DNA of 22,676 bases from a virus (IMGVR_UViG_3300030103_003585:1-22676); one strand, 5' to 3'; positions 4,942 to 12,859 are shown, counted from the first letter of the stretch. A program made the numbers and translations. Notes: a model not told the origin generated them from the letters alone.

Positions 4942-5103
4942 ATGTCTGAAATTTATCCTGTATTAATTGGCGTTGCAGCAACGGCTTTCGTCATGGTTTT
5001 ATCCAATATAAGTAGTCGAAGAGACAGAGACATTATAGAATTGTTTCGCAGAGTAAATCAGCTTGAAAAAGAGGTCAGTAGGTTAGAAGGACAGAATCGT
5101 TAA
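4942..5103 (+). CDS. Small membrane protein with coiled coil (53 aa)
   Basis: The protein starts at the ATG at 4942 (MSEIYPVLIGVAATAFVMVL). One transmembrane segment (residues ~5-22) is followed by a charged helix with heptad spacing (IIELFRRVNQLEKEVSRLEG). The short N-out or N-in anchor plus coiled coil recalls small lysis or spanin-like accessory proteins, but I cannot assign it. It lies opposite the holin-like gene and starts a three-gene + cluster. Confidence 0.65.
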   Translation: MSEIYPVLIGVAATAFVMVLSNISSRRDRDIIELFRRVNQLEKEVSRLEGQNR

Positions 5104-5137
5104 TTTTTGGTATGTTTGGGAAAGAACATAAAACACT

Positions 5138-5299
5138 ATGTCAAAATTTTTAATTAATCTATTCATTAAATTTGGTAAATCTGAATCTTTGCGTAAAGCT
5201 GCTTTAAGTTTATTAAAGGATCTTGCAGCTAAATCAGATAATGATGTTGATGATGCCATTGTCAAAATGATTGAAGAAAAATTATTTCCAGTAAAATGA
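5138..5299 (+). CDS. Hypothetical 53-residue helical protein
   Basis: ATG at 5138, TGA at 5297-5299, overlapping the next ATG (ATGA at 5296). The product is an amphipathic, lysine-rich helical protein (MSKFLINLFIKFGKSESLRK ...) with an acidic middle (KSDNDVDDAIVKMIEEKL). The stop/start overlap and normal codon use support a real gene. Function unknown. Confidence 0.65.
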   Translation: MSKFLINLFIKFGKSESLRKAALSLLKDLAAKSDNDVDDAIVKMIEEKLFPVK

Positions 5300-5571
5300 A
5301 CGTTAAAAAATTTCTCAACATAGAGATAGAGGAAGCACCACCAGAGTTGCAACTGTCTGTTGAAATGCGTTGTAGAGAAATTATGCAAAGTAAAGATTAT
5401 GACAATATAAAAAGATACTGCACACATTTAGTAAGACATCAAATGCACCAAGATGTTTTTCTTGCATCTTTACTTGGTAGACTGGTTGAACTTGAAGCAG
5501 AAAATGTAGTACAAAAAGTCAGAAACAAACCAGACCTTATCAAAAGATTTAAAAAAAGATTTTTCAAGTAA
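5296..5571 (+). CDS. Hypothetical 91-residue protein
   Basis: A predicted all-helical, charged protein (ELQLSVEMRCREIMQSKDYD) with a basic Arg/Lys/Phe-rich C-terminus (LIKRFKKRFFK). It is coupled to the upstream gene through ATGA. Its 3' end overlaps the convergent minus-strand gene at 5564 by 8 bp. I recall similar proteins in marine phages only as hypotheticals. Confidence 0.7.
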   Translation: MNVKKFLNIEIEEAPPELQLSVEMRCREIMQSKDYDNIKRYCTHLVRHQMHQDVFLASLLGRLVELEAENVVQKVRNKPDLIKRFKKRFFK

Positions 5572-5683
5572 TTTGATAAAGTCTTTGCTTTTCAATCACT
5601 TTTTTCATTGACCAATATCTTATAAGTGTTTCTAGTTCGTTTATACGTTTTTTTGCAGCAATAATTTTTTCTTTTGTATTCAT
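5564..5683 (-). CDS. Hypothetical 39-residue protein, last gene of the leftward cluster
   Basis: The ORF begins MNTKEKIIAAKKRINELE and encodes a basic helix with leucine/isoleucine spacing typical of a short coiled coil. Its ATG lies 3 bp after the upstream stop, which suggests translational coupling. It ends convergently with the + gene at 5571. It is too short for certain assignment, but the spacing supports a real gene. Confidence 0.5.
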   Translation of the reverse strand: MNTKEKIIAAKKRINELETLIRYWSMKKVIEKQRLYQIT

Positions 5684-5686
5684 AAA

Positions 5687-5983
5687 TTATTTTTCATATT
5701 TTTCCATATAGACCTTTTTTTCTTCATCTGTAAAGTCTTTCATCTGCATTTTGTGAACTTTATCAACTTGATAATTATATTTAAGTATTGCTGTTTTTAT
5801 ATGTTCAGCAACCCAACGACCTTGTTCTGTTACAACTTGTGCCTTGCCTCTATCGTTAATAAAAACATAATGGTCATAACCTTTTAAGGTATCGTCGAGC
5901 AACTCTTTTTCCATTTTTTGAAAACGTAATTCTTTAAGTTTATTTAACTTAATTTTGAATTTGTTTTTATTATATTGACTCAT
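5687..5983 (-). CDS. Hypothetical 98-residue protein
   Basis: Lys-rich helical ends (KNKFKIKLNKLKELRFQKME and KMQMKDFTDEEKKVYMEKYEK) flank a small compact middle (YDHYVFINDRGKAQVVTEQG) that may form a beta hairpin. There are no cysteines, signal peptide or membrane segment. It starts 2 bp after the upstream stop, within the leftward early operon. Not recognised. Confidence 0.65.
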   Translation of the reverse strand: MSQYNKNKFKIKLNKLKELRFQKMEKELLDDTLKGYDHYVFINDRGKAQVVTEQGRWVAEHIKTAILKYNYQVDKVHKMQMKDFTDEEKKVYMEKYEK

Positions 5984-5985
5984 AA

Positions 5986-6267
5986 TTAAAAGCTTTTTTT
6001 GTTTCTGTGGGATTTAGATTGTTTTCTTTGTTTTGGACATTCTGTGCTTTTTGGTTTTTGCGAAGTAAGATGCCAACCATTACCTTTAGGACATTGATAA
6101 GCATAACTATGACCTTTGCCAACGTGTCTCATTTCTGATGCTATCACTTTGGCATCACTTTCTGTACGATAACTTACTTTTTGGCATTTCCAACAATGAT
6201 TTTGTATGATAAAACCTTTATCAATAATATATTGTTTTAGGTTTTTTAAATCAATTCTTTTTCCCAT
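5986..6267 (-). CDS. Small zinc-finger-like protein (93 aa)
   Basis: The product carries CWKCQK (residues ~25-30), then YRTESDAKVIASEMR, then CPKGNGWHLTSQ. This layout recalls small phage and bacterial proteins with a pattern like CxxC ... YRC-P--C-GWHLT that bind zinc. Here the second pair is incomplete (one Cys plus His), so metal binding is uncertain. The C-terminus is highly basic (KQRKQSKSHRNKKSF) and may bind nucleic acid. It overlaps the upstream gene by 17 bp. Confidence 0.65.
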   Translation of the reverse strand: MGKRIDLKNLKQYIIDKGFIIQNHCWKCQKVSYRTESDAKVIASEMRHVGKGHSYAYQCPKGNGWHLTSQKPKSTECPKQRKQSKSHRNKKSF

Positions 6268-6634
6268 GCGAACCGTCTTTGAAATCTTTTACAAATACTT
6301 TTTTTATGTGGTTCCAGTTAGCCTTAATTAATTTGTTTGAAAAGTTATTACCAGAGATTGTTTCGCAATCTTTTTCAGTAAATTCATAATTTAAAAAAAA
6401 GTTATCCCAGTTAATAAAAATAGCTTTGTTCGCTACTGCATTGGCATATTCAGTTGCATTATCTATGGTTTCAAAGTCATAACATCGCAAGATGCTTACA
6501 TACAAAACTTCTGTATTCTGTGCATATTGAATAGTTACGCATTTAAACTTCGCACCATCAAAGGTACGTTTTACTGTCTTGCCCATTAGGTCGGCATAGT
6601 CCACCACAAGTTTCCTACGATTTTTCTTGAACAT
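6251..6634 (-). CDS. Hypothetical 127-residue protein
   Basis: A mixed alpha/beta protein with a basic start (FKKNRRKLVVDYADLMGKTV) and several aromatic strands (VLYVSILRCYDF, INWDNFFLNYEF). It contains two Cys, apparently not a metal site. It overlaps its upstream neighbour by 20 bp and the downstream one by 17 bp. I see no motif that identifies it. Confidence 0.65.
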   Translation of the reverse strand: MFKKNRRKLVVDYADLMGKTVKRTFDGAKFKCVTIQYAQNTEVLYVSILRCYDFETIDNATEYANAVANKAIFINWDNFFLNYEFTEKDCETISGNNFSNKLIKANWNHIKKVFVKDFKDGSHGKKN

Positions 6635-6974
6635 CTAACTGTTTTTCGATTTCAAATTTTTCATCAAACAGAGCATGAATCTGTTTTGATATTTTTCTTT
6701 GTATTAGAGGATTATCCTCTTTAAATCTTTGTTGTGTAAGTTCTTTTAATTTTTGATCAATGTTGTAATACCTTAATTCAAGAAACTGTTGTTGATCTGA
6801 TGCAACAAAGTCTGGATTTGGCTTTGTTTTACTTGCTTCAATAGTTACATCTATTGTTACGTGTTTACAAGCTGTAGGCTGTGTTATTGCTTGTTCTACT
6901 GTTATTGGAAAAGGACAAAGTTTTATCCAATCCTCAAGTGCTTTGTTTGTAAAATCTAGTCGCATTCTGGACAT
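6615..6974 (-). CDS. Hypothetical 119-residue protein with helical C-terminus
   Basis: The N-terminal half contains short strands and three Cys-containing turns (WIKLCPFPITVEQ, TACKHVTIDVTIEAS). The C-terminal half is a long charged helix (LKELTQQRFKEDNPLIQRKI to EIEKQLDVQEKS) likely to form a coiled coil. It overlaps the upstream gene by 19 bp and the downstream gene by 20 bp. Not recognised. Confidence 0.65.
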   Translation of the reverse strand: MSRMRLDFTNKALEDWIKLCPFPITVEQAITQPTACKHVTIDVTIEASKTKPNPDFVASDQQQFLELRYYNIDQKLKELTQQRFKEDNPLIQRKISKQIHALFDEKFEIEKQLDVQEKS

Positions 6975-7315
6975 TCAAAATGTAATGGTTGTTCAGTGAC
7001 CATTGCCGATAAAACCAGCAAGGCCATTTTTGTAGGAGGTTGTTCGTTACTAAAAGGTAAGATTTTTTTGTTTGGTAAATGCAAGCCTTCGTTAGAAACA
7101 ATTAAAGAATTTTCGCCAGCACATTCAGCAGAATGTTTTTTGTCTAGTTGAGAAAATAAAAGGCCGTCACCATATTCTTTGTTGTGGCAAGTATGTGGCC
7201 TAAAATCAAACCAATCTAGATCAAAGCACTCAAGACCAAGTGCTAAATGGTCTTGAAATACTGCAACATTTGGTGGCAGCTTAGGCTCTGTTACTTTAGG
7301 TAGTGATTTTTTCAT
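6956..7315 (-). CDS. Hypothetical 119-residue protein with Cys pair
   Basis: The protein has acidic/aromatic stretches (LALGLECFDLDWFDFRPHTC) and ends in FECPECD, a CxxC pair at the very C-terminus. Together with the earlier Cys and His residues it could bind zinc. It starts 2 bp after the upstream stop. No family recognised; its position beside the recombination module suggests a DNA-metabolism accessory. Confidence 0.65.
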   Translation of the reverse strand: MKKSLPKVTEPKLPPNVAVFQDHLALGLECFDLDWFDFRPHTCHNKEYGDGLLFSQLDKKHSAECAGENSLIVSNEGLHLPNKKILPFSNEQPPTKMALLVLSAMVTEQPLHFECPECD

Positions 7316-7317
7316 AG

Positions 7318-7602
7318 TTAAAAAGGTATTTCTTCTTTTTCTGTTTTTGCTACAGAAATTGCACCTGACACAAAAGAAGTGCCATTTTTAGATTCTCTAT
7401 GCCAAGCACTAACTGGTACTTTTACAACTTTTTCGCCAGCATAGTTGTCCTCGCCTTCTTGGCCTGTAATCCATTCTGCCAATGCCATGGCATCTTGCAA
7501 AGTAAATTCTATATTGCCACCTAAGTCTGGTGATTTAGCTGATTTTTTATCAGTATTATTAAAGAGGACAAGACGCCCTGTAAAAAGGTTTTCGTAGGCC
7601 AT
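7318..7602 (-). CDS. Candidate single-stranded DNA-binding protein (94 aa)
   Basis: The small beta-rich protein includes KSPDLGGNIEFTLQDAM and VKVPVSAWHRESKNGTSFVS. This resembles the short OB-like or DUF736-type proteins that phages use on ssDNA. It ends EKEEIPF, an acidic tip followed by Ile-Pro-Phe that closely resembles the C-terminal tip of bacterial SSB (DDDIPF), which recruits partner proteins. It lies in the same operon as the ERF annealing protein and exonuclease, which fits an SSB role. The family assignment is inferred from these features only. Confidence 0.5.
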   Translation of the reverse strand: MAYENLFTGRLVLFNNTDKKSAKSPDLGGNIEFTLQDAMALAEWITGQEGEDNYAGEKVVKVPVSAWHRESKNGTSFVSGAISVAKTEKEEIPF

Positions 7603-7604
7603 AA

Positions 7605-7841
7605 TTAAAAAGATTTAATAGGAATGATTGAGTTTGTTTCTTCCCAAGCAAGTACTTGTGGAAGTGGGTATCTGATAAGGGGAGAACCCAAAGCAGTTGC
7701 CTGTCGTGGTACTGAATACCACTGTGGACCTTCTGCTTTACCTCGCCTTGTACTTGTTCGCCACTTCTTTATGGTTCTTTGAGTTATACCATATCGTTCT
7801 GCGAGGTCTTTGGTTGATAGATAAGGCTGGTCTTGTTCCAT
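7605..7841 (-). CDS. Helix-turn-helix DNA-binding protein, excisionase/MerR-like
   Basis: Residues ~7-30 (YLSTKDLAERYGITQRTIKK) form a helix-turn-helix typical of the small MerR/AlpA/excisionase group. A basic wing (RTSTRRGKAEG) and a C-terminal helix (RYPLPQVLAWEE) follow, matching the layout of that family. The 78-residue length is normal. Its start overlaps the ERF stop by 1 bp. It may regulate the early promoters or act in recombination; no integrase is present in the window to pair with it. Confidence 0.75.
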   Translation of the reverse strand: MEQDQPYLSTKDLAERYGITQRTIKKWRTSTRRGKAEGPQWYSVPRQATALGSPLIRYPLPQVLAWEETNSIIPIKSF

Positions 7842-8524
7842 TACTTAAGTACCTTTATCTTCTTAACAATAAGAGTTTCTAATTGCTCTTTTTGTGTAAT
7901 AGTCAGTTTACCTTGTGCGAATCTAGTTGCAATGTTTTTCTGATGATCTGTTAATTGTTCTTTGCTTTTTGCATTTAGTATTGCATTTTTTGCAAGACCA
8001 AAAGTTTTATCAGTATCAGATGTATTTGATATTTCTTTGACTTGCTCTCGCAAAGTCTCTATAACCTCGCCTTTATTTATATTTTTTTCTTGTACCTTTT
8101 CTTCTTCTTCCATATTAAAGTCCATATCTGTTTCAAGACCTAAGATCAACTTAATGCTGTATCTTCTTTGATATGTAACTGCACCACCCCAGTTATGTGT
8201 TTGGTTTTTCTTAGGGTTGGCCATATCTTTTTCTGATAAAAATATTGGCAGTTCACTTTTTATCATGCCACCACTTTTATGTATAAGTCTTGTGACAATA
8301 AGTGTTTCGCCTGTAGGAGTATAGCCAAAGCCTTGTGAAAGACAAAGACCATGTTTAAGAAGAACAGGTGTAACCAAAGAAAGCATTTGTTCCAGAGGTA
8401 AATAGCTGTAACCAAAAGAACCTACACCAACTTGTTTGGTCTTACCCATAGTTGGAAATTCTGCTTGTGCTTTTTGTAAAGCTGTTGCCACTTCTTGGCA
8501 TGGGTGTTGTGGATAATCTGTCAT
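7841..8524 (-). CDS. erf: ERF-family single-strand annealing protein
   Basis: The 227-residue protein has the ERF core: SFGYSYLPLEQMLSLVTPVL, then HGLCLSQGF, HKSGGMIKSELPI, and the signature GGAVTYQRRYSIKLILGLE. ERF proteins form rings on ssDNA and anneal complementary strands for phage recombination. The C-terminal ~70 residues are a Glu/Lys-rich helical tail. I place the start at the ATG at 8524 (MTDYPQHP), 4 nt after the exonuclease stop. The open frame extends further upstream, but that part overlaps the exonuclease gene and reads as a shadow. With 8529-9335 it forms a RecET/Red-like pair. Confidence 0.85.
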   Translation of the reverse strand: MTDYPQHPCQEVATALQKAQAEFPTMGKTKQVGVGSFGYSYLPLEQMLSLVTPVLLKHGLCLSQGFGYTPTGETLIVTRLIHKSGGMIKSELPIFLSEKDMANPKKNQTHNWGGAVTYQRRYSIKLILGLETDMDFNMEEEEKVQEKNINKGEVIETLREQVKEISNTSDTDKTFGLAKNAILNAKSKEQLTDHQKNIATRFAQGKLTITQKEQLETLIVKKIKVLK

Positions 8525-8528
8525 TGTT

Positions 8529-9335
8529 TTAGTTTGTTTTGTATGCCCAACTTGGTAGGCTAAGTGTTTGGATTTCTTCTGCATAACCATGCCAGTGGGC
8601 ATCTGTATGACATTTAGAAATAAGTTTGAGGGCAGCTTGTCTAAGACGTTTGCCTTCAGCAATTGCATCTTCGTCTAGCTCTGTAATGCTTATGGCATAT
8701 GGGTAGACTTTTTCGACTGCTATAAATACAAATCGCTTTGCACCAATTACTTCTAAGTAATGAGCAGTCTGTAGGTGGTAAAGGTAATTGGCCACTGACT
8801 TTATAAATTTGTCTGGGTGGCTATTACCCTCGCCAGTTGTTTTAAGGTCGATAATTGTATCACCATTTAAAAAGTCGCATCTTGCTTTGCAAGTAAGACC
8901 AGTTTCCTTATCTTCTTTCCAAAAGCTTTGTTCAGCAGAACCAACTGAAAGAAGTTTTTTTGCAATTGGGTGTGACCAAACAGCATTGGCAATACTTGAT
9001 GCAAGATCGTATTCTTGGTTTGTTATAGGTTCTATACCTTTGGCTGCCATTTCTTCTGCTTGCACTTTTCCAGCTTTGGTTGATCTACTAAGGCAAACGC
9101 CATAAGCTTTTTTTGCTCTGTCTGGTTCTAAGGTAAATGCGTGGCAAAGTTCGCCAACTCTAAATGCTTTTTTTAGTGCTGGTTCGTGTTCTAACTTCTT
9201 CTGTTGATACTTGCTTTGATAAAACACTTGCGGACAAGTGCTTGTAATAAGCTTCAGATCGCTGGCAGAATAAGCTGGGTCTGCATGATATACCTCTGCT
9301 GGTATATACTCTGAGTCTGTATTAATCTTTGGCAT
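8529..9335 (-). CDS. PD-(D/E)XK exonuclease, RecE / YqaJ-like
   Basis: The 268-residue protein starts with the usual substrate-entry region (YHADPAYSASDLKLI), then GELCHAFTLEP, whose His lies where the family has a conserved motif. The nuclease core is CKARCDFLNGDTIIDLKTT, with Asp and DLK as the D...(D/E)xK metal site. YHLQTAHYLEVIG is the C-terminal QxxxY-type motif. Such enzymes resect double-stranded ends 5' to 3' and hand 3' tails to an annealing protein, here the ERF gene 4 nt downstream. It overlaps the upstream coiled-coil gene by 14 bp. Confidence 0.85.
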   Translation of the reverse strand: MPKINTDSEYIPAEVYHADPAYSASDLKLITSTCPQVFYQSKYQQKKLEHEPALKKAFRVGELCHAFTLEPDRAKKAYGVCLSRSTKAGKVQAEEMAAKGIEPITNQEYDLASSIANAVWSHPIAKKLLSVGSAEQSFWKEDKETGLTCKARCDFLNGDTIIDLKTTGEGNSHPDKFIKSVANYLYHLQTAHYLEVIGAKRFVFIAVEKVYPYAISITELDEDAIAEGKRLRQAALKLISKCHTDAHWHGYAEEIQTLSLPSWAYKTN

Positions 9336-9585
9336 TTAGTTTGTCCTCTAGGTTTGCAACACGTATTTTAAGTGTTGTAAGTTCTTCGGCTTGTTTAACA
9401 ATAAAGTCTTTTATGACATTTATTTTGCTATCTAAGGCCAGTACAGTTTGACCTGTATTGTGCCCTAGTTCTCTAGTTGTTTGAGAAAGTTTTGTAAGAG
9501 CATCTATAAGTTGAAACCTAGATGTTTTTTGTTCTTCTTCGTTCTTTTGTATTGTCTCAAGAATCTTTTGTATGTCTCTAACCAT
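9322..9585 (-). CDS. Coiled-coil protein (87 aa)
   Basis: Almost the whole protein is predicted helix with heptad spacing (IQKILETIQKNEEEQ, LTTLKIRVANLEDKLN). It has no Cys, signal peptide or membrane segment. It overlaps the exonuclease start by 14 bp and the upstream gene by 8 bp, so it is firmly in the operon. Function unknown; a scaffold or regulator of the recombination genes is possible. Confidence 0.65.
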   Translation of the reverse strand: MVRDIQKILETIQKNEEEQKTSRFQLIDALTKLSQTTRELGHNTGQTVLALDSKINVIKDFIVKQAEELTTLKIRVANLEDKLNAKD

Positions 9586-9751
9586 TTTTTTTGACTTCTC
9601 CTGTTTGTATAAAAGTTTTAATCCATTTGTCTAGTTCTTCTTCTGACATAGAGCTAATGTAATCTTCAACGCACATGGCGGTAAGATATTGGTCATTAAG
9701 AACATTATTCAAGATAGTTTTATGAATATGTCCATCTAAGCGGTCTACCAT
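9578..9751 (-). CDS. Hypothetical 57-residue acidic protein
   Basis: I choose the ATG at 9751 (MVDRLDGHIH) over an upstream TTG-type start. It is preceded by a strong AGAGG Shine-Dalgarno, and its first bases overlap the stop of the upstream gene (ATGGTAG). The product is a small helical protein (CVEDYISSMSEEELDKWIKT). Not recognised. Confidence 0.6.
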   Translation of the reverse strand: MVDRLDGHIHKTILNNVLNDQYLTAMCVEDYISSMSEEELDKWIKTFIQTGEVKKNG

Positions 9752-9879
9752 TTGGCTACCTCTTGGCAAGCCAGTTCTACACCAGCACGACAATCTGCTT
9801 TGGTCATGTCTTGTAGTGTTGAGGTAAGTGCGGTAAATAAGATACCGCCTATTGCTAAGTAAAGGAATAAGTGTTTCAT
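9745..9879 (-). CDS. Small membrane/secreted protein (44 aa)
   Basis: The ORF MKHLFLYLAIGGILFTALTS begins with a basic residue pair and a hydrophobic segment of ~16 residues, so it is a signal anchor or signal peptide. A short tail with two Cys (ADCRAGVELACQEVAKW) follows. Its ATG overlaps the stop of the preceding gene (ATGA), and its stop overlaps the next start. Both junctions support translation. The paired Cys in such a short exported domain suggest a disulfide. Confidence 0.6.
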   Translation of the reverse strand: MKHLFLYLAIGGILFTALTSTLQDMTKADCRAGVELACQEVAKW

Positions 9880-10055
9880 CTCATTGCCCTCTGTCTTAGT
9901 AAGAAAGAAAGTTGCTTTTTGTATTTAGTAACATTTCTTTTGTGCTTGGCTAGCTCGGTAAAATCGCCAGTTGCACAGCAAAAAGCGTAACCGTTTTGTG
10001 CTTCTTGAAACTTGACCTTTACTTGGTCTATCTCTTGTTGTAGTTCGTCTACCAT
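9876..10055 (-). CDS. Hypothetical 59-residue basic protein, first gene after promoter
   Basis: The ORF begins MVDELQQEIDQVKVKFQEAQ, a coiled-coil-like helix. It then contains FCCATGDFTELAKHKR and a basic C-terminal helix (KYKKQLSFLLRQRAMR). It is the first gene downstream of the promoter and GAGA-hairpin leader at 10072-10138. It has no Shine-Dalgarno: the start follows ACAACCCCC and an A-run. It overlaps the next gene by ATGA. Confidence 0.6.
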   Translation of the reverse strand: MVDELQQEIDQVKVKFQEAQNGYAFCCATGDFTELAKHKRNVTKYKKQLSFLLRQRAMR

Positions 10056-10138
10056 TTTTTTTGGGGGTTGTGGGCTCTCGCCCTTACTTCAATTATAGTC
10101 TGGGTTTTCCCTATTGGCTACCCACCTAGTGTTCGGTT
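10056..10138 (-). promoter_or_regulatory. Leftward early promoter with upstream box and GAGA-hairpin leader
   Basis: Read on -, the box AACCGAACA (10138-10130) lies 32 bp upstream of a perfect TATAAT (10097-10092). Eight nt later comes the hairpin GGGC-GAGA-GCCC (10083-10072), so the RNA would start with or just before the stem. The leader continues ACAACCCCC and an A-run up to the ATG at 10055. A GGGAAAACCC inverted repeat lies just upstream of the -10. No consensus -35 is present. Confidence 0.6.
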
Positions 10139-10154
10139 TGTTTTTTGGCAAAAG

Positions 10155-10481
10155 TTAATCTGTACCGTTAGATATTTTTAATAAAAGTTCTTTTTCTTTA
10201 ATAGGGTCAAAGCAGATGTCTCTTTCTACTGGCAACCCAAAAGGACCTCTAAGTTCTTTTATTTCTTTCATATCAAAAGAACCATACTCTTGTTCGTGGC
10301 CTTTTACCAAACCCCAAGCAATTTCTGTCTCTGGGTCGTATTCAGCGATAAACCAAGTCCAGTTGCTATCGGGTGTGAATAGCTTTACATAAAAGACCAT
10401 TTCTTGTGATAGGTCATCATGTGCTGGTTGGCTATAAAGCTTTGGAAGTTTTTTTAGAATTTCTTTTGTTAAAAGTTTCAT
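10155..10481 (-). CDS. DUF2958 family protein
   Basis: The 108-residue sequence follows the DUF2958 pattern closely. It starts MKLLTKEILKKLPKLYSQ, then VKLFTPDSNWTWFIAEYDPE, then WGLVKGHEQEYGSFDMKEIKELRG, and GLPVERDICFDPI. The family is common in phages and plasmids and has no established biochemical role. Length is normal. Its ATG overlaps the upstream stop (ATGA). It is the last gene of the operon starting at 11171. Confidence 0.8.
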   Translation of the reverse strand: MKLLTKEILKKLPKLYSQPAHDDLSQEMVFYVKLFTPDSNWTWFIAEYDPETEIAWGLVKGHEQEYGSFDMKEIKELRGPFGLPVERDICFDPIKEKELLLKISNGTD

Positions 10482-10618
10482 TGTTTTTTGTAAAGTGATT
10501 TTAAATAAGTTGTTTCGATAGCTCTTCTTTGTTTAACGTATTCTTCGTTTTTCATGTTTTCAAACAGATACCTGTCAAACAAATTACCAAGTGCTTCGTA
10601 ATATTCTTTTTTTGTCAT
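10478..10618 (-). CDS. Hypothetical 46-residue protein
   Basis: The ORF reads MTKKEYYEALGNLFDRYLFE and continues to a Lys-rich end (LKSLYKKQ). It is a compact, amphipathic helical protein. Its start overlaps the upstream TAA by 1 bp (TAATG) and its stop overlaps the next start (ATGA), which strongly suggests a translated operon member. Function unknown. Confidence 0.6.
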   Translation of the reverse strand: MTKKEYYEALGNLFDRYLFENMKNEEYVKQRRAIETTYLKSLYKKQ

Positions 10619-10818
10619 TAGAAAGGTTGATCCCAAGTGTCGTATTGTTTACTTGTAATAAGACCATCTTTGCAAAGGGCATCTGTGTAATCGTTCCACT
10701 CGGTACGCTTTGCAACTTCATCTCCTCGTCTGTAGCCGTGTTGTATGGCTTTGATTTTGTAGATGTATCTGAAAAGCTTGATTGCTTCTGCTTTGGTCAT
10801 TGGTTTAGAGGTAGCCAT
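10618..10818 (-). CDS. Hypothetical 66-residue protein
   Basis: A basic helical protein (MTKAEAIKLFRYIYKIKAIQ, then EWNDYTDALCKDGLITSKQYDTW). The layout suggests three helices and could be a small DNA- or protein-binding module. The start may be at M1 or at the internal Met at residue 7. It overlaps both neighbours by a single base. Confidence 0.65.
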   Translation of the reverse strand: MATSKPMTKAEAIKLFRYIYKIKAIQHGYRRGDEVAKRTEWNDYTDALCKDGLITSKQYDTWDQPF

Positions 10819-11171
10819 TAGACTACCTCTTTGATGTCAGAACCAACTTTAATGTGTGCTGCAACAGCTTCATCTAAATAAAGATGTCCACCATAAAGAT
10901 CAAGTGCTGAAAATAAAGCCTTTAGACTACCTTCATGTAAAAGGTTGTATCTAACACCTTTTGCTGGCTTTCTCCAACCAGCTGGTTTAAATACATCTCC
11001 TGTTTCTCTATCAATAAAAGCAAAAGCGCCTTCGTTGTGTGTTAACTTCAAGTACTTGTTACCTTCAGTTATAAGAAAGTCTCTTTCGCCACCTTCTTCA
11101 TAAATAAGTTCGTTTAACTTATCTTGGTAAAGTCTTGCTTGTTCGTAGACTTTAAGTGTTTGGTCAGTCAT
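10818..11171 (-). CDS. Phage hypothetical protein (117 aa), first gene of early operon
   Basis: The core KYLKLTHNEGAFAFIDRETG DVFKPAGWRKPAKG VRYNLL resembles a widespread phage family of unknown function that I remember with the pattern KYIK ... FVD-TGDVYKPA-WK-PAKG-R-N. An N-terminal helix (YEQARLYQDKLNELIYEEGG) precedes it. It is the first gene after the leader hairpin at 11189-11202, and translation starts without a Shine-Dalgarno. Confidence 0.65.
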   Translation of the reverse strand: MTDQTLKVYEQARLYQDKLNELIYEEGGERDFLITEGNKYLKLTHNEGAFAFIDRETGDVFKPAGWRKPAKGVRYNLLHEGSLKALFSALDLYGGHLYLDEAVAAHIKVGSDIKEVV

Positions 11172-11256
11172 TAGTTTTTTGAGGTTGGGAGCATCTCTGC
11201 CCTATGATTCCATATTACCATTCCCTTAAGTGTATGTACAGTAAAAGTGTTCGGTT
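11172..11256 (-). promoter_or_regulatory. Leftward early promoter with upstream box and GAGA-hairpin leader
   Basis: Read on -, AACCGAACA (11256-11248) lies 30 bp upstream of TAATAT (11217-11212), which is preceded by TGG as an extended -10. Nine nt later comes the hairpin GGGCA-GAGA-TGCTC (11202-11189; 5 bp with one G-U). The leader then reads CCAACCTC and an A-rich stretch to the ATG at 11171. It drives the operon 11171-10155. Confidence 0.55.
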
Positions 11257-11299
11257 TATGAACTGGTGCATCTAAGGTAGACTATGGGGAACTATGTGG

Positions 11300-11331
11300 T
11301 ATAATGGTAGTAAGGGCAAGAGATTGTCCTT
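11300..11331 (+). promoter_or_regulatory. Rightward early promoter with GAGA-hairpin leader
   Basis: A perfect extended -10 (TGGTATAAT, with TATAAT at 11300-11305) is followed 6 nt later by the stem AAGGGCAA / TTGTCCTT (11312-11319 with 11324-11331; 8 bp, one G-U) capped by GAGA. There is no AACCGAACA box at the usual distance. The promoter stands back to back with the leftward one at 11212-11256. It drives the gene at 11359. Confidence 0.6.
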
Positions 11332-11358
11332 GTTCACGAACCTCGAAATTTTAATACT

Positions 11359-11691
11359 ATGGAAAATGCTAAACGCATTAAACTTGCCATCTGCGTCTTT
11401 GGGCATGGCGGTTCATATCAAGTCTGGGCATCTGGCTCAGATGAGAATATTGTACTTGCAACCAAAGCAGCAAAAAAAGCAAAAAGGGATTACAAAATTA
11501 AAAAAGGTTTTGTAATGCCAGTGAATCTCTATGACATCACTGATACTGAACACTGGGCGTACGATGGTTACACTATTGTTAACCCAGACAAAGTTGATAA
11601 AGAGTCAGAGAGTTACAAGAATGACATTTACAATGAGTTTAGAGGCGCAAAGCCAATTAAACGAATTGAAGTTCTTGAAGTCGTACTTTAA
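11359..11691 (+). CDS. Hypothetical 110-residue early protein
   Basis: An alpha/beta protein with an N-terminal strand (RIKLAICVFGHGGSYQVWAS), a Lys/Ala-rich helix (ATKAAKKAKRDYKIKKGF) and an aromatic middle (YDITDTEHWAYDGYTIV). It ends in a strand (KRIEVLEVVL). It is the first gene of a short rightward early transcript that begins with a GAGA hairpin and ends at the hairpin 11698-11720. Small, immediate-early position suggests host takeover or regulation, but nothing identifies it. Confidence 0.65.
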   Translation: MENAKRIKLAICVFGHGGSYQVWASGSDENIVLATKAAKKAKRDYKIKKGFVMPVNLYDITDTEHWAYDGYTIVNPDKVDKESESYKNDIYNEFRGAKPIKRIEVLEVVL

Positions 11692-11697
11692 AAATAC

Positions 11698-11726
11698 AAG
11701 CTGCTCTACATGGGCAGCTTTACTTA
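11698..11726 (+). terminator. Terminator-like hairpin A
   Basis: AAGCTGCTC / GGGCAGCTT (11698-11706 with 11712-11720) is a 9-bp stem with one G-U and a TACAT loop, 7 bp after the gene stop. The downstream T-run is weak (tactta), so termination may be partial. It is nearly identical to hairpin B at 11956. Confidence 0.6.
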
Positions 11727-11744
11727 CACTTCGCAAATTTTATT

Positions 11745-11951
11745 ATGTTATCTTTTGACAACTGGCTTGCTACAGACCAATGTAGTTTTTTCTTACACAA
11801 GCATGATGTAAAAAATCAGCTAACTGAAGCTGAACTTCGCAAACTTTATTTTATCTTTAAGAAAAATAAATTTGAAACACCATGCAATGTAAAGATAAAG
11901 GAATGTTGGAATCTTCAAAACGAAGATGGAACAACTGGTATTCCTAGTTAA
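11745..11951 (+). CDS. Hypothetical 68-residue early protein
   Basis: A small helical protein (LSFDNWLATDQCSFFLHKHD, LTEAELRKLYFIFKKNKFE) with three Cys in its 68 residues. It sits between two copies of the same terminator hairpin, so it is probably transcribed by readthrough of hairpin A. No clear promoter of its own is seen. Not recognised. Confidence 0.55.
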   Translation: MLSFDNWLATDQCSFFLHKHDVKNQLTEAELRKLYFIFKKNKFETPCNVKIKECWNLQNEDGTTGIPS

Positions 11952-11955
11952 GTAC

Positions 11956-11988
11956 AAGCTGCTCTTAATCGGGCAGCTTTTCTTTCTA
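11956..11988 (+). terminator. Terminator hairpin B
   Basis: The same 9-bp stem as hairpin A (AAGCTGCTC / GGGCAGCTT, 11956-11964 with 11971-11979) with the loop TTAATC, followed by TTCTTTCT. It is a plausible intrinsic terminator for the rightward early transcript. Confidence 0.7.
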
Positions 11989-11991
11989 CTG

Positions 11992-12213
11992 ACTGCGGTG
12001 TTTTAATACAACCGGTACATATAACACTGCTGTTGGCCAACTGCTGTATTTTAAATACAAATGGTAACCATAATACTGTTATTGGTTAATTTTACATAAG
12101 TCTAGTCATTGCAATGGTTATAAGTTCTACAACTGGTAACCATAATACAGCTATAGGCTTACTGCGGTATTTTAAATACAAGTGGTTACTATAATACTGC
12201 TTTTGGTTATGCA
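11992..12213 (+). repeat. Broken fibre-type repeats in a non-coding region
   Basis: Four units match the fibre repeat code but lie in three reading frames and are interrupted by stops. They read NTTGTYNTAVG from 12005, NTNGNHNTVIG then a stop from 12054, STTGNHNTAIG from 12126, and NTSGYYNTAFGYA from 12175. Unit starts are about 50-51 bp apart except for one 70-bp step. The element ACTGCGGTnTTTTAAATACAA recurs. No intact gene covers the region, so it is probably the remains of a tail-fibre gene segment. Confidence 0.7.
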
Positions 12214-12223
12214 CCAGTAAAGA

Positions 12224-12290
12224 AACCGAACATTTAATGGTACATCTAGGGGAAAGATACCCTATAATAAAAGAGTAAGGCAGAGATGCC
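12224..12290 (+). promoter_or_regulatory. Rightward early promoter with upstream box and GAGA-hairpin leader
   Basis: AACCGAACA (12224-12232) lies 30 bp upstream of a perfect TATAAT (12263-12268). Ten nt later comes GGCA-GAGA-TGCC (12279-12290). The leader continues ACAACCCCGACAAACA to the ATG at 12307, the same order of elements as at 10056-10138. TAGGG / CCCTA flank the spacer just upstream of the -10, which may be an operator. Confidence 0.6.
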
Positions 12291-12306
12291 ACAACCCCGA
12301 CAAACA

Positions 12307-12711: not shown

Positions 12712-12744
12712 TAAAAAAACCCTGTACAAAGGGTCTTTTTTTTG
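12712..12744 (+). terminator. Intrinsic terminator
   Basis: The stem ACCCT / AGGGT (12719-12723 with 12730-12734) has a GTACAA loop, is preceded by an A-run and is followed by CTTTTTTTT. This is the best rho-independent terminator in the window. It ends the transcript of the gene at 12307-12627. The flanking A- and T-runs also allow leftward termination. Confidence 0.8.
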
Positions 12745-12765
12745 TTTATTGTGTATTATTAAAGT

Positions 12766-12859
12766 AATCAGGGAGCCTGATGCCCATTGCAACACGAGGG
12801 CTGAAAGCTGTAATGGCAGGGCAGTCTCGGCGAGGTTGACTGATCTATCCCCTGATTTT
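12766..12859 (+). ncRNA. Candidate structured small RNA, three-way junction
   Basis: A perfect 8-bp closing stem AATCAGGG / CCCTGATT (12766-12773 with 12850-12857) encloses two further helices. CCATTGCA pairs with TGTAATGG (12784-12791 with 12809-12816; 8 bp, one G-U), and CAGTC with GACTG (12822-12826 with 12838-12842). The segment is clearly richer in G+C than its surroundings. A TATTAT box at 12754-12759 would place the RNA start at 12766, and TTTTATT follows the closing stem like a terminator. I could not match it to tRNA or to a riboswitch or ribozyme class I remember. Confidence 0.45.

Follow-up and report, generated by a model that had tools for sequence, protein, structure and literature searches.

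Among the leaders of phage early transcripts, the boxB/nut sites of lambda are small hairpins with a GNRA-type loop. Another 5' leader hairpin, that of the LoaP system, has a UNCG-type tetraloop and a role in antitermination (PMC12691694). Control by pairing between the two ends of one message has been described in Staphylococcus aureus, where a motif in the 3' untranslated region (UTR) of icaR mRNA pairs with its own 5' leader and controls translation (PMC3868564). The phage RNAs OOP, sar, and PreS are thought to pair with mRNAs and have one or few targets, and the cyanophage RNAs CfrI, wcaG, manA, glnA, and abiF are structured or antisense (PMC12197685). Yfr103 is 290-328 nt long and multi-copy (PMC5069720). 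Here we compare these systems with a locus in IMGVR_UViG_3300030103_003585:1-22676, a stretch of 22,676 nt (the window) that forms part of the 38.2-kb record of a marine cyanobacterial virus. Its four early leaders all open with a hairpin capped by GAGA, and a conserved four-helix RNA encoded nearby has a loop, that of helix P4, complementary to the leaders.

We propose that each leader forms the receiving side of a recognition module made of two RNA parts, in which the P4 loop of the four-helix RNA pairs with early mRNA leaders, and give this reading a probability of roughly two in three. The hairpin, the four-helix RNA, and the covariation of loop and leader are each supported by sequence comparison. 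The nearest annotated relatives of the virus are Synechococcus phages S-H1 and KBS-S-2A and Prochlorococcus phages MED4-184/P-HS2 and MED4-117 (terminase identity 53-57%). Close relatives were drawn from IMG/VR, and distant ones (approximately 60%, 50%, and 37% identity) were added by means of rep and exonuclease profiles.

Complementarity between early leaders and a P4 loop

Seven GAGA hairpins with a stem of at least 4 bp occur in the window, and only four of them adjoin both a -10-like box and the start of an open reading frame (ORF). A prediction made from the window alone (the original prediction) had described these four, and we found them where it placed them: each comes immediately downstream of a -10 box, with a start codon shortly after it. 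The components of the four leaders and of the RNA that matches them are as follows.

10092-10097, minus strand: -10 box TATAAT of leader 1
10072-10083, minus strand: leader 1 hairpin GGGC-GAGA-GCCC (minimum free energy -8.2 kcal/mol; covariance model match of 30.6 bits)
10063-10071, minus strand: leader 1 pairing segment ACAACCCCC, in which CAACC forms 5 contiguous bp with the P4 loop (duplex of -9.3 kcal/mol)
10055, minus strand: leader 1 start codon ATG
11212-11217, minus strand: -10-like box TAATAT of leader 2
11189-11202, minus strand: leader 2 hairpin GGGCA-GAGA-UGCUC (fold and covariance model match)
11181-11187, minus strand: leader 2 pairing segment CAACCUC, 7 bp with GAGGUUG of the P4 loop
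11171, minus strand: leader 2 start codon ATG
11300-11305, plus strand: -10 box TATAAT of leader 3
11312-11331, plus strand: leader 3 hairpin AAGGGCAA-GAGA-UUGUCCUU (fold and covariance model match)
11339-11345, plus strand: leader 3 pairing segment AACCUCG, 7 bp with CGAGGUU of the P4 loop
11359, plus strand: leader 3 start codon ATG
12263-12268, plus strand: -10 box TATAAT of leader 4
12279-12290, plus strand: leader 4 hairpin GGCA-GAGA-UGCC (fold and covariance model match)
12292-12299, plus strand: leader 4 pairing segment CAACCCCG, 5 contiguous bp and further pairs (duplex -10.6 kcal/mol)
12307, plus strand: leader 4 start codon ATG
12766-12857, plus strand: conserved four-helix RNA, outer helix P1 at 12766-12773/12850-12857 (homologues, covariation, covariance model)
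12822-12842, plus strand: P4 hairpin CAGUC-UCGGCGAGGUU-GACUG, whose loop (12827-12837) pairs with the leaders

The segment from hairpin to ATG was complementary to the P4 loop of its own genome (loop/leader CGAGGUU/AACCUCG and UUAAGCGAGG/UCUUCGCUUAA), and clades with an altered loop had an altered leader: GCGAGG/CCUCGC, GCGAAG/CUUCGC, GCAAGG with CCUUGC-type segments, and GCGGGG/CCCCGC. It is the CAACC-type, C-rich stretch noted in the original prediction that changes in concert with this loop of the four-helix RNA. MED4-184 carries CUCGC just before the start of both divergent early genes, matching its own loop UACGCGAGGU, and two high-GC viral contigs (L212 and L228) have five leaders each, with unrelated GAGA or GANGA hairpins, nearly all of which carry CACCUC, the complement of the contig's own RNA loop. 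In a set of 81 distinct leader tails from 45 loci, pairing averaged 15.9 with the loop of the same genome, 11.7 with the loops of other clades, and 10.2 ± 0.25 for shuffled tails. When loops were assigned to seven clades, the true assignment ranked first of 5040 permutations. The P4 loop was the best-pairing 11-nt window of the four-helix RNA in 10 of 11 genomes. Pairing sites were not found genome-wide; they were concentrated at particular starts.

The match was also examined in held-out phages and hosts, a set mostly unused in forming the hypothesis and overlapping the first set for some contigs (e.g., L240, L251, and L263). Leaders with GAGA or GANGA loops paired better with their own loop than with others (13.9 vs. 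10.0; n = 79; Wilcoxon P = 1.7e-12, a value that, like all P values here, ignores the kinship of the sequences and so overstates the evidence). Among 3972 held-out ORF starts near a four-helix RNA, pairing with the own loop was observed at 49 of the 91 with a GAGA/GANGA hairpin (54%) and at 434 of the 3881 without one (11%); after loops were swapped, these figures were 15/91 (16%) and 469/3881 (12%).

Conservation of the hairpins and the four-helix RNA

A covariance model of the leader matched three or four times per related phage genome and nowhere else in the 38.2-kb parent record; in near-complete genomes the three or four leaders all lay within the divergent early region. To avoid selecting for GAGA, we also used a promoter-only profile (-62 to -10), which ends at the -10 box and excludes the hairpin, and which was trained on promoters having GAGA leaders. 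Its hits in relatives at E < 0.01 comprised 51 distinct promoters, each followed by a GAGA hairpin (51/51). In 33 distinct leaders the inner four stem pairs were standard in 132 of 132 cells, around an invariant loop; in three of these pairs both partners vary, and in the fourth only one does. The claim that these leaders are RNA structures, based on compensating stem changes with GAGA kept, is supported by these leaders, and homologous leaders in related phages kept both stem and loop, the loss of which would have refuted the original prediction. In the window, the stem of leader 2 has 5 bp (GGGCA/UGCUC), one of them G-U, and that of leader 3 can be extended to 11 pairs. Close relatives have GGGC/GCCC, GGCA/UGCC, GGGA/UCCC, GGAG/CUCC, and GGGUAA/UUACCC, and the genes downstream vary while the leader is kept. 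In distant phages the hairpin is kept with unrelated stems (AGCCC/GGGCU, GAAGC/GCUUC, GAGGA/UCCUC, AGUCA/UGACU, and GGUCGA/UCGGCU).

Loops other than GAGA appear outside the nearest clades: pentaloops of the form GA-N-GA occur (GAAGA, which one group of relatives has, GAUGA, and GACGA), and the loop of P-HS2-like phages can be GAAG, GAGG, or GGAG. Of 57 distinct hairpins between a -10 box and an ORF in all loci, 27 had GAGA, and every other loop occurred at most three times. The -10 box and the loop were approximately 11-16 nt apart in the leaders inspected, and GAGA lay on the mRNA strand in all leaders found. Two other roles for the hairpin were disfavoured on these patterns: a DNA operator, given that compensating changes replace the stems and that GAGA was on the mRNA strand throughout, and an N4-type hairpin promoter, given the good -10 box at a constrained distance upstream. 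Support for both RNA structure and a shared signal, as originally claimed, extends to at least four phage clades and to host genomes. The reported absence of a Shine-Dalgarno sequence holds for the four window leaders and fails as a conserved trait, several relatives having GAGG 7-8 nt before the ATG. The P4 loop as a Shine-Dalgarno mimic was also rejected, many loops being unlike that sequence.

The four-helix RNA lies between the leader 4 gene and rusA and was present in all clades, including MED4-117 and MED4-184 (L004:13797-13915). Compensating changes on both sides were observed in 15 of its 20 predicted pairs; many G-U and almost no A-C pairs were found, which indicates that the plus strand is the functional one. 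The P4 stem covaries (CAGUC/GACUG, CGGUC/GACCG, CGGAC/GUCCG, and CGGAA/UUCCG) and the loop differs by clade. No match to the RNA was found among the 4227 covariance models of Rfam. By its core pattern, it occurs in at least 119 viral contigs and also in Synechococcus genomes; a covariance model gave 71 confirmed matches among new viral loci, counted 5, 18, 9, 5, and 1 copies across five Synechococcus genomes, and had matches in 8 of the 81 genomes sampled from the family. The motif CUGAUGA...GAAA suggested a hammerhead ribozyme, an identity that we rejected: a column of A that would be invariant and unpaired in CUGAUGA is paired here and covaries from A-U to C-G (pair 21/54). A guide RNA of an insertion sequence was rejected as well, since the host copies inspected occur immediately 3' of ordinary genes, and a terminator follows most of them.

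In Synechococcus the RNA often begins 4-45 nt past a stop codon, with an intrinsic terminator after most of the copies inspected, and the gene upstream can have a leader hairpin and a matched segment of its own. Three loci illustrate the arrangement: hairpin GGGG-GAGA-CCCC with segment AACCACAC against loop GUGUGGUU (L338), GGGA-GAGA-UCCC with UCAUCAA against UUGAUGA (L337), and GAGGG-GAGA-CCCUC with CCGCUUU against AAAGCGG (L352). Elsewhere in the hosts, four identical copies of the RNA stand at contig ends of Synechococcus UW140 (L339, L342, L346, and L349), which suggests a repeated gene family breaking the assembly, and another Synechococcus genome (G013, at L347) has three copies with different loops in approximately 2.2 kb.

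Further features of the window are as follows.

12225-12232, plus strand (promoter 4), with counterparts at 10130-10137 and 11248-11255, minus strand: shared upstream element ACCGAACA of the promoters
11728-11734, plus strand: possible further pairing site ACUUCGC (7 bp, one of them G-U), which lies 10 nt upstream of the ATG at 11745 and has neither a promoter nor a GAGA hairpin of its own
12719-12734, plus strand: hairpin and U tract resembling an intrinsic terminator, after the leader 4 gene
12754-12759, plus strand: -10-like TATTAT upstream of the four-helix RNA, present as TATTAT or TATAAT in many relatives

The common block ACCGAACA ... GGTRCATCTAGGGGAAA, which precedes the -10 box, may be a site for an activator or repressor. 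A small gene (11745-11951) is bracketed by two near-identical terminator-like hairpins, AAGCTGC...GCAGCTT, at 11698-11720 and 11956-11979 on the plus strand. Degenerate ACTGGTAACCATAATACTGCTATTGG-like repeats at 12000-12215 resemble the NTTGxxNTAVG repeats coded by ORF 7-1545 and are possibly decayed copies of them.

Proposed mechanism and rival explanations

From these patterns we infer that the leaders and the four-helix RNA are both expressed, that they pair in the cell, that the pairing has an effect of a given sign, and that GAGA has a part in it. The P4 loop UCGGCGAGGUU would base-pair with the C-rich segment that follows the GAGA hairpin and precedes the start codon, most likely lowering translation initiation and possibly mRNA lifetime; lowered translation is expected because the segment lies approximately 7-25 nt upstream of the ATG, within the 30S initiation footprint. 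Repression is our best guess, and activation or stabilization is possible. As the four-helix RNA accumulated, the dosage of all early genes would be controlled in concert or the genes shut off. The GAGA hairpin would mark the 5' end of a target, probably to be read by the four-helix RNA itself or by a host factor; a partner that reads GAGA is probable because host genes carry the same hairpin and RNA pair. Where the host RNA lies 3' of a gene whose leader matches it, it could act within one mRNA. A more tentative and rather doubtful extension is that the GAGA tetraloop docks in a receptor within the conserved core of the four-helix RNA at the same time as the P4 loop pairs with the neighbouring segment. 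The two contacts would make a lock between RNAs that some Synechococcus would use gene by gene in 3' UTRs and that phages would use in trans, with one copy for all early mRNAs and an address particular to each genome that prevents cross-talk.

Several observations weigh against the proposed pairing. The GAGA loop is not explained by pairing and has no complement in the conserved parts of the four-helix RNA; leaders 1 and 4 of the window reach only 5 contiguous bp; and two loci (L093 and L094) pair poorly despite GAGA leaders. Many host genes paired no better with their own loop than with others in a less stringent cis test, for which the start codons were ambiguous, and the P4 loops of the held-out set were taken by a heuristic. 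The four-helix RNA would need its own promoter, because a strong terminator-like hairpin separates it from the leader 4 gene. Finally, related sequences are not independent, and our P values overstate the strength of the match accordingly.

The last point is also what gives some footing to the idea that shared ancestry or biased composition mimics the complementarity without function, as does the fact that loops are often G-rich and leaders C-rich; the chance of this is very small in our estimate, since the signal was lost with swapped loops and shuffled tails, the loops UUGAUGA, AAAGCGG, and GAUUGUGG were matched equally specifically, and the permutation of clades ranked the true assignment first. 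A protein of host or phage that binds the hairpin to control translation or stability of early mRNAs, with the complementarity secondary or competing, is unlikely but has a direct merit: a factor that reads the loop would explain why the loop stays GAGA or GA-N-GA while stems, and even the order of stem strands, change. It leaves the change of the adjacent segment in concert with a distant RNA loop unexplained, and no candidate protein was identified. Covariation of that segment with the loop of the four-helix RNA is not required by a signal for a protein and would not be expected from a plain stabilizer of the 5' end. The latter, protection against decay that depends on the 5' end, suits a hairpin beginning a few nucleotides from the predicted transcript start. 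Any stable hairpin would do, yet GAGA occurs in 27 of 57 and other loops in three or fewer. The loop is far more uniform than stability requires, and we rejected a plain stabilizer as the main account and judge it improbable; of the original interpretation, RNA structure and a shared signal are supported, and a protein (or an RNA) may read the GAGA loop.

The slightest chance is given to nut/boxB-like or put-like antitermination sites of the early operons. A GNRA-type loop near the 5' end of each early transcript, the GAAGA loops of one group of relatives, and the gene at 11745, which follows a terminator-like hairpin without space for a promoter, would all fit. Against such sites, the terminator scan listed no minus-strand site in 5000-10050 on the leftward operon, no boxA-like element was recognized in the leaders by eye (no formal scan was made), and PHROGs and Pfam searches of the early ORFs named no N-like arginine-rich protein (no dedicated search was made); moreover, the hairpins occur at single host genes with their own terminator.

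If pairing of leader and P4 loop is correct, abundant marine cyanobacteria and their viruses would share a modular form of RNA regulation, in which the scaffold is conserved, the address loop can change, and the leader bears a mark that matches. It would explain the coordination of early genes in phages with few recognized regulators, targets could be read from the sequence of each genome, and the module would offer a designable RNA switch. For the cultured phage P-HS2/MED4-184 on Prochlorococcus MED4, the reading makes a testable prediction.

Comparison with known systems

The early transcripts described here resemble those of lambda in having a GNRA-type hairpin and differ in that the segment beside the hairpin matches an RNA loop. 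A 5' leader hairpin read by a factor is likewise a feature of LoaP; a leader of LoaP type was rejected, as it requires a UNCG-type loop and the loop here is GAGA or GA-N-GA. Judged by its length and distribution, the four-helix RNA differs from Yfr103. CfrI is an antisense RNA linked to psbA; the four-helix RNA matches no Rfam family. With OOP, sar, and PreS it shares being a phage-encoded RNA presumed to act by pairing with mRNA, but here one matched segment recurs among the early leaders of a given phage and the RNA family is also found in hosts.

Two traits of regulators that pair 5' with 3' UTRs or in trans were found: complementarity of leader and RNA kept by covariation, and a partner whose structure is independently conserved. 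The host copies have the same 5'-3' UTR layout as icaR. Whereas icaR is a single gene, the module here is widespread, with a four-helix RNA, a GAGA-type hairpin, an exchangeable loop, and several phage operons. We found no prior description of this combination in Rfam or in the open-access literature searched. The regulatory principle, pairing of a leader with an RNA, is already known; what appears to be new is the conserved four-helix RNA, with its exchangeable loop and the GAGA mark, in both hosts and phages.

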